In this document: positions 16,561 through 36,954 of the stretch, one piece after another | How positions within the stretch are numbered: position 1 is the stretch's first letter | How the letters are laid out: each line of letters begins with the position of its first letter | Position numbers and translations under genes: made by a program | Assembly: GCA_018714325.1 (NCBI GenBank) | Contig: DVNN01000234.1 | Location: 1 to 46,786 of the forward strand | Length of the DNA stretch: 46,786 nt | Direction of reading: 5' to 3' | From: Candidatus Pelethocola excrementipullorum | Lineage (GTDB): Bacteria > Bacillota > Clostridia > Lachnospirales > Lachnospiraceae | Notes under the pieces: generated by a model | Seen by the model: the letters and a program-made list of their open reading frames with translations, nothing else | Told to the model about the DNA's origin: nothing | Database searches by the model: none

Positions 16561-16730
16561 ATCTGTTATATTCCAAAGAGAATTTCACTCTGGGATGACA
16601 ATTTTTAAGTAATTCTTTCTTCGCATTATTCTTTTCATATTTTATATTGTTCTTTTTATTTGATGCTGATATAATTAGTGAAGTTTCTCCAGAATTATGG
16701 AGATTTCATCACTCTCATTTTATGATACCA

Positions 16731-16886
16731 GGGTCAAAAGGTCATGCGTTTCATGCTTTCATGAAAAAGCATGAGTTTGGGACCCGCAAAACATGAGAAA
16801 GTAGCCCAAATAGGGCGGATTTCGAATGTTTTAGGATTGTGCGGAACAATCCGTAGTATCATGGGGGCAAAATACCTTTTGACCCC
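16731..16886. repeat. MITE-like small non-coding element with terminal inverted repeats
   Basis: GGGTCAAAAGGT (16731-16742) / ACCTTTTGACCC (16874-16885) perfect TIRs; flanking near-identical direct repeats TCATTTTATGATAYCAGGG at 16715-16733 and 16891-16909; internal hairpins (GATTGT..ACAATC, GCCC..GGGC). Confidence 0.65.
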
Positions 16887-35168: not shown

Positions 35169-35351
35169 TTAAGCCCCTATACGACTCAGGCATACGTCAG
35201 AAATCACAATAATATCATCGACCCTCACCTGTAAAACCGCCGCCAGTACCATATCTATGGAAGGCAGCGTTGTCCCATGCTGCCACTTATAGATTGTTCT
35301 CCTGTTCCAGGCTATCGCTGAATGATCCGTATCCCTACCATTGAAAGCCAT
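35169..35351 (-). pseudogene. Remnant of an XRE-type helix-turn-helix regulator
   Basis: RRTIYKWQHGTTLPSIDMVLAAVLQVRVDDIIVI resembles the C-terminal half of an XRE HTH domain, but the N-terminal part is missing and no recognisable C-terminal domain follows. Confidence 0.45.
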
Positions 35352-36640: not shown

Positions 36641-36675
36641 CAGAAAAGGCCGCCTATCCACATGGATAAGCGGCC
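36641..36675 (-). terminator. Rho-independent terminator of the small ORF/RNA upstream of rtcB
   Basis: Minus strand GGCCGCtTATCCA TG TGGATAgGCGGCC TTTTCTGTTT. Confidence 0.85.
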
Positions 36676-36702
36676 GCCTGGAATCACTCTATGAAATCAT
36701 GA

Positions 36703-36825
36703 TTACACAACACAACTCTTAAACGCTTTCCCATATGAACGCAACACGATAAAGCTCTGGCTTTGGCGCAGAGCTTGAGGCTGTTCATTATATAGCCAAA
36801 CGTTTAAAAAATTAACTGATTTCAT
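36703..36825 (-). CDS. Candidate 40-aa small protein or leader peptide MKSVNFLNVWLYNEQPQALRQSQSFIVLRSYGKAFKSCVV
   Basis: ATG to TAA, 41 codons, preceded by GGGAAAGGAATCTAATC (purine-rich SD-like); own promoter-like sequence and terminator. Too short for the supplied ORF list. Confidence 0.5.
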   Translation of the reverse strand: MKSVNFLNVWLYNEQPQALRQSQSFIVLRSYGKAFKSCVV

Positions 36826-36878
36826 GATTAGATTCCTTTCCCGCATTCTTCTGCGTCCATTTTTATCACTTGTCTTAC

Positions 36879-36907
36879 ACTATATCATATAAAATTCCTT
36901 TTGTCTT
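36879..36907 (-). promoter_or_regulatory. Sigma-A-like promoter for the small ORF/RNA
   Basis: Minus strand AAGACA (36902-36907) - 17 nt - TATAGT (36879-36884). Confidence 0.5.
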
Positions 36908-36954
36908 TATACTTCTGCTATAAATTTCTAGATATTCCCAGAATTTTCACTCAC

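Follow-up and report, generated by a model that had tools for sequence, protein, structure and literature searches.

What is the function of the strongly folded RNA encoded directly upstream of an RNA ligase gene in Candidatus Pelethocola excrementipullorum? The window (the whole 46,786 nt stretch analysed here, contig DVNN01000234.1) carries on its minus strand, at 36641–36872, a segment that an earlier note had described as a structured RNA, acting either alone or as a translation-controlled switch. The structure and the switch linked to translation both survive the analysis set out below; the lone RNA does not, the segment being the 5′ leader of rtcB, a link absent from that note. The conserved logic is the coupling of leader translation to a downstream terminator, and we consider it probable that the segment is a transcription attenuator working through a leader peptide, with control codons that correspond to the tRNAs being replaced or repaired. 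The computed support comprises the fold, its covariation, selection on the small ORF, gene context and a match between leader codons and operon tRNAs.

Layout of the leader and its operon

All features described here lie on the minus strand. The predicted promoter consists of a −35 element AAGACA (36902–36907; TGACAA in relatives) and, 17 nt away, a −10 element TATAGT (36879–36884), the spacing of which places the expected transcription start near 36872. It is overlapped by an operator-like inverted repeat, TATAG-N5-GTATA (36908–36922), a degenerate version of the TATAC-N5-GTATA repeat of the family; TATAC-N5-GTATAATGACA stands upstream of the leader in most relatives and is a putative repressor-binding site. 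Within the transcript, a mini-hairpin termed P1 (CGCA-gaagaa-TGCG, 36842–36855), matched by a short hairpin at the same position in the folds of most relatives, lies directly upstream of the ribosome site. The Shine–Dalgarno sequence GGAAAGGA (36834–36841), kept in nearly all relatives, stands a short distance before the start codon of a 40-codon leader-peptide ORF, MKSVNFLNVWLYNEQPQALRQSQSFIVLRSYGKAFKSCVV (36703–36825; ATG at 36825, stop codon TAA at 36703–36705). An intrinsic terminator follows, with a GC-rich stem GGCCGCTTATCC-atgt-GGATAGGCGGCC at 36648–36675 (regions 3 and 4) and UUUU at 36644–36647. Its sequence is conserved among relatives, where it precedes the controlled gene and its stem is separated from the stop codon by a median of 36 nt in diverged leaders.

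The rtcB gene itself (RNA ligase, Pfam PF01139; 35376–36587) starts about 56 nt past the terminator. At 35169–35351 lies a stretch that tblastn aligns to the family and that appears to be what is left, after truncation, of the small HTH (XRE-like) gene found behind rtcB in relatives; it has no Pfam match of its own, and ‘XRE-like’ is a label only, since even an intact relative of the gene scores under the curated cut-off of the Pfam HTH models. Judged by their sequences, this gene, which seems truncated or frame-shifted, and the degenerate promoter-side repeat both look decayed in the Pelethocola copy, decay or an assembly error being possible.

The fold and known RNA families

The earlier note had named five ordered complementary pairs, and inspection of the sequence locates every arm within the segment, in the order given. 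From the outside inwards these are GGAATC (36831–36836) with GATTCC (36680–36685), the latter separated by 4 nt from the terminator stem just as had been claimed; ATGAAATCA (36817–36825) with TGATTTCAT (36691–36699); TTAAACG (36801–36807) with CGTTTAA (36719–36725); ATGAAC (36783–36788) with GTTCAT (36735–36740); and an apical hairpin of AAGCTCTG (36769–36776) with CAGAGCTT (36752–36759), spanning 36752–36776 and supported by the fold and by covarying helices. The 5′ arm of the long interrupted hairpin (region 1, 36779–36812), seen in the fold here and as covarying helices in relatives, thus faces a 3′ arm (region 2, 36719–36740). The minimum free energy of the native sequence (−83.7 kcal/mol) is far below that of 200 dinucleotide shuffles (−56.7 ± 4.5 kcal/mol; z −5.96), none of which equalled it.

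A scan of the leader against Rfam release 15 produced no match reaching the gathering score and none of note with E up to 10, which rules out the known Rfam families; the models for raiA, T-box and Y RNA, if present in that release, gave no match over the gathering cut-off, and the only match in the whole window was a Clostridiales-1 RNA (RF01699, 93.9 bits) at 16723–16861 on the plus strand. The likeness to 6S RNA raised previously lies in the long interrupted hairpin, but the leader does not match the covariance model RF00013, and the genome's own 6S RNA (61 bits) is found on another contig, which rules this candidate out.

A family of leaders in Lachnospiraceae

Nucleotide searches for homologues of the leader returned only chance matches of 20–40 nt because the leader RNA drifts fast. 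Homologues were instead gathered through the rtcB neighbourhood and with a covariance model. In other genomes of this bacterial family, the region preceding rtcB has the same layout and an almost unrelated sequence: every leader combines a promoter and a ribosome site with a short ORF, which is set on a long hairpin that covaries, and with an intrinsic terminator. A first covariance model, made from eight leaders, detected the leader in 33 of 397 genomes of the family; a refined model, made from 39 relatives and leaving out the Pelethocola copy, detected it in 47 of the 397 and in five of 391 genomes of the class, four of these five belonging to the same family. When the refined model was run against the 3.9 Mb Pelethocola genome, its sole match (E 0.0054) was this leader, with the ATG as the exact start of the match. 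Among the carriers are Faecalicatena orotica and numerous Lachnospiraceae assemblies, and the layout also occurs in one Erysipelotrichaceae assembly. The collection comprises 71 distinct leaders and 39 further matches in one genus (about 110 in all), and would appear to represent an undescribed family found mainly in the Lachnospiraceae.

Homologous leaders show compensatory change, which bears out the earlier claim of a structured RNA. In an alignment of 39 leaders, 71.6% of cells pair; shuffling the partners lowers this to 61.9%, and sliding the arms to 43.6% or less. Two-sided compensatory changes occupy 191 cells, compared with 88.5 in shuffles (none of 500 reached the observed number), and are present in all six helices. 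The covariation score of 0.343 exceeds those of the shuffled (0.194) and slid (0.130 or less) controls. Fitting the alignment to the structure inflates these figures, but they agree with the slid control and with the folds of individual leaders. The consensus fold of a plain MAFFT alignment contained nothing but the terminator, because sequence alignment misplaces the arms.

Leader codons and operon tRNAs

Amongst the 71 distinct leaders, 50 stand before rtcB (a count biased by the gathering of part of the set through rtcB), 58 before the HTH gene and 30 with tRNA genes; 68 precede at least one of the three and three precede none. The tRNA genes, from one to 24 per operon, are located either between the terminator and rtcB or behind the HTH gene, and leaders found by the model only also head arrays of an HTH gene plus tRNA genes that lack rtcB.

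Family-wide, the control codons fit the function of the operon. For 22 leaders, a fraction of 0.259 of the residues matched the tRNA set of the same operon, compared with 0.185 for permuted sets (z 6.2, p 2e-4, the match being scored by amino acid, not exact codon, and shuffle p-values of this kind not being exact for related leaders), and the other two frames of the same DNA gave z 0.1 and 0.2. The excess is confined to codons 9–29, with nothing in codons 2–8 or 30–36. At stricter identity the match persists below 40% (z 3.2, n = 8), the two leaders remaining below 33% being too few to give the test any power, and pairs of related leaders with differing tRNA sets are concordant in 38 cases and discordant in 18 (p 0.005). 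A second set, from one genus and with the codon window set in advance, replicated the match (z 3.8, p 3e-4), and the sets combined gave z 6.85 (p 1e-4) with codons 2–8 and 30–45 null. By way of example, the L160 operon encodes tRNAs for Tyr-Cys-Gln-Gln-Ser and its leader reads ...CYSYQYEQQ..., whilst L161 has tRNAs for Lys-Glu-Glu-His-Tyr and a leader reading ...YHQAHNEYEKALKREEY....

Since the Pelethocola operon contains rtcB but lacks tRNA genes, the tRNA match rests on its relatives. Its control window, placed by inference at codons 9–29 (36739–36801), reads VWLYNEQPQALRQSQSFIVLR and is glutamine-rich, with four Gln codons as well as Tyr, Asn, Glu, Ser and Arg; by the logic of the family, the leader is predicted to react when glutamine tRNA, amongst other tRNAs, is lost.

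Several observations on the wider neighbourhood are recorded here. One genus (L222–L260) has tRNA islands, with as many as 24 genes, behind the leader; they are patchily distributed between species (33 of 79 genomes) and in some genomes occur twice, which suggests mobility. Viral contigs contain three relatives of the HTH gene, with no adjoining leader or tRNA gene. Between terminator and rtcB, L034 has a tRNA-like sequence whose anticodon region carries an insertion and which was not called by ARAGORN (L058). Finally, in L032, L035 and L041, copies of rtcB without the leader are directly preceded by a gene that, by eye, ends like a vWA/Ro60-like protein, which may represent a further way of arranging RNA-repair genes within this bacterial family.

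Terminator control and the proposed mechanism

In the mechanism that we propose, a promoter near 36880–36907 would transcribe a leader comprising the ribosome site, the 40-codon ORF on the 1:2 hairpin and the 3:4 terminator, followed by rtcB. Were the ORF left untranslated, the 1:2 hairpin would form, and with it the terminator; were it translated to its stop codon, the ribosome would cover region 2 and the terminator would still form. If the tRNAs for codons 9–29 were missing or broken, we infer that the ribosome would stall and free region 2, which could then pair in part with the 5′ arm of the terminator and allow polymerase to read into rtcB and, in relatives, on into tRNA genes for the same amino acids. 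The operon would in this way sense loss of particular tRNAs, with tRNA damage as the presumed natural signal, and supply an RNA ligase to mend them, fresh tRNA copies or both. The HTH protein, for which a repressor role may be envisaged, would probably provide a second control at the promoter.

The weakest step of the attenuator reading is the identity of the antiterminator segment. By inspection, GGGAAAGCG in region 2 (36724–36732) can pair at eight of nine positions with CGCTTATCC in the 5′ arm of the terminator (36664–36672). It is the best partner for that arm in the Pelethocola leader (−8.6 kcal/mol; p 0.40 against shuffles of the zone), and across the family the terminator 5′ arm is complementary to region 2 beyond shuffles (combined p 5.6e-5), more weakly to the apical zone (p 0.004) and not beyond shuffles to region 1 or the linker after the stop codon. 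In stall simulations, the probability of 2:3 pairing was 0.09 without a ribosome, 0.30 with a ribosome stalled at codons 5–7 and about 0.01 at codons 31–37, a change in the expected direction yet seen only in part of the leaders, the Pelethocola copy alone not being significant. The most effective simulated stalls (codons 3–9) lie somewhat upstream of the tRNA-matching codons (9–29). The modelling thus offers partial support for a 2:3 antiterminator.

A further conserved element is found family-wide about 40 nt before the leader ATG, upstream of the P1 hairpin (for example GATAAGCGGA in L064). In many leaders this 5′ motif could pair with much of the terminator 5′ arm (combined p 1e-7), for which it competes with region 2, the two complementarities being anticorrelated across leaders; it is perhaps a second antiterminator. 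A variant of the same leader-peptide sensor can be built on it, in which the 5′ motif, or some other segment, replaces region 2 as the antiterminator; alternatively, the ribosome might report general translation stress, as the response of the TrcR-repressed rtcB and 26-tRNA operon of Anabaena to elongation-blocking antibiotics would allow (PMC10272220). In the simulations, however, pairing of the 5′ motif with the terminator arm was unaffected by ribosome position, and the specific match of codons to tRNAs favours specific sensing over general stress. We regard these variants as rather unlikely and retain region 2, freed by a ribosome stalled on specific codons, as the preferred candidate for the antiterminator.

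Translation of the leader

Readings that dispense with attenuation fare less well. One is that the locus encodes a free structured small RNA, Y RNA- or 6S-like, that has its own promoter and terminator, merely lies beside rtcB and contains an ORF by accident. The strong fold and the promoter and terminator fit this picture, as does the presence of the Y RNAs yrlBA in the Salmonella rtcB operon (PMC7790460). Yet in 46 diverged leaders (<80% identity) the ATG frame is open over 38 codons in 45, compared with 2/46 and 0/46 for the other frames, a result for which the bias from a collecting script that required an ORF of 28–90 codons is small because the leaders it dropped (L036, L126, L133 and L097) do have the ORF and were missed for other reasons; L021 has a GTG-started frame. 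The small ORF, on this sequence evidence, is selected to stay open, the Shine–Dalgarno sequence is conserved, only in-frame residues match operon tRNAs and Rfam offers no match. A free small RNA is accordingly very unlikely, and the claim of a translation-linked switch gains from the same data.

The form of switch put forward in the earlier note, with the start codon of the small ORF concealed in the hairpin and exposed only on a signal, holds for the predicted fold of the Pelethocola copy, where the AUG is almost wholly paired (paired with probability 0.99, unpaired 0.01), but not across the 46 diverged leaders. There, the Shine–Dalgarno sequence is mostly open (mean unpaired probability 0.59) and the state of the AUG varies (0.39; 13 of 46 open); pairing of the AUG is particular to the Pelethocola copy because the conserved, modelled helix begins just past it. 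Close leader pairs, moreover, differ by 178 nonsynonymous and 63 synonymous codon changes; translation of the leader thus seems to matter and the peptide product not to, so that hiding the start would leave no product to control, and we judge such a switch highly improbable. That the ORF encodes a functional small protein, such as a toxin or an RtcB partner, is scarcely credible, for although the frame is conserved and third codon positions change somewhat more often in close pairs (103/77/142 changes by position), nonsynonymous changes exceed synonymous ones, composition tracks the operon tRNAs and there is no Pfam match. Attenuation by way of a translated leader peptide remains our reading of the locus.

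Comparison with known systems

Leader-peptide attenuation is textbook knowledge for amino acid synthesis, the trp, his, leu and ilv operons of enteric bacteria being biosynthetic attenuators of this type. The leaders described here resemble them in having a Shine–Dalgarno sequence, a short ORF with control codons, segments predicted to form 1:2 and 3:4 (terminator) pairings and, putatively, a 2:3 pairing, and a peptide that is free to drift. They differ in the genes controlled (an RNA ligase, an HTH protein and tRNA genes), in control codons that are of many kinds and follow the tRNA set of the operon, and in the presumed signal, which would be a missing or broken tRNA and not just an uncharged one. 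We found no report of leader-peptide attenuation of rtcB/RNA ligase or tRNA genes in the literature searched, which excludes most subscription journals. On balance, we lean towards a new attenuator class, a self-tuning sensor of tRNA loss with a leader peptide written in the codons of the operon's own tRNAs, such that attack on those tRNAs (by anticodon nucleases, for example) would induce RtcB and spare tRNAs, and leader and tRNA cargo would co-evolve. If so, the natural targets of bacterial RtcB would become readable from sequence, each leader naming the tRNAs that it watches, and the spare tRNA islands of gut bacteria would be tied to defence against tRNA-cutting enzymes.

T-box leaders bind tRNA directly and have no ORF. 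Like the leaders considered here, they are leader RNAs that report on tRNA and set a terminator; the present leaders differ in possessing an ORF and in having no Rfam T-box match.

Two other systems connect rtcB to tRNA or translation. In Anabaena, the ribbon-helix-helix repressor TrcR has a regulon of rtcB and a 26-gene tRNA operon on which elongation inhibitors act (PMC10272220). The likeness is that a single control responding to translation stress governs both rtcB and spare tRNA genes; the difference is that control there is repressor-based, and neither leader peptides nor attenuation are mentioned in the text of that paper. In the Salmonella rsr-yrlBA-rtcBA operon, broken tRNAs (tRNA halves) induce rtcBA through RtcR, a CARF-domain activator (PMC7790460), so that rtcB expression is again tied to tRNA damage. 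Where Salmonella relies on an activator that binds tRNA halves, and on no leader peptide as far as the text of that paper says, the Lachnospiraceae leaders would use a leader peptide and an RNA fold, which, if our reading is correct, would explain how these bacteria could sense RNA damage without RtcR.
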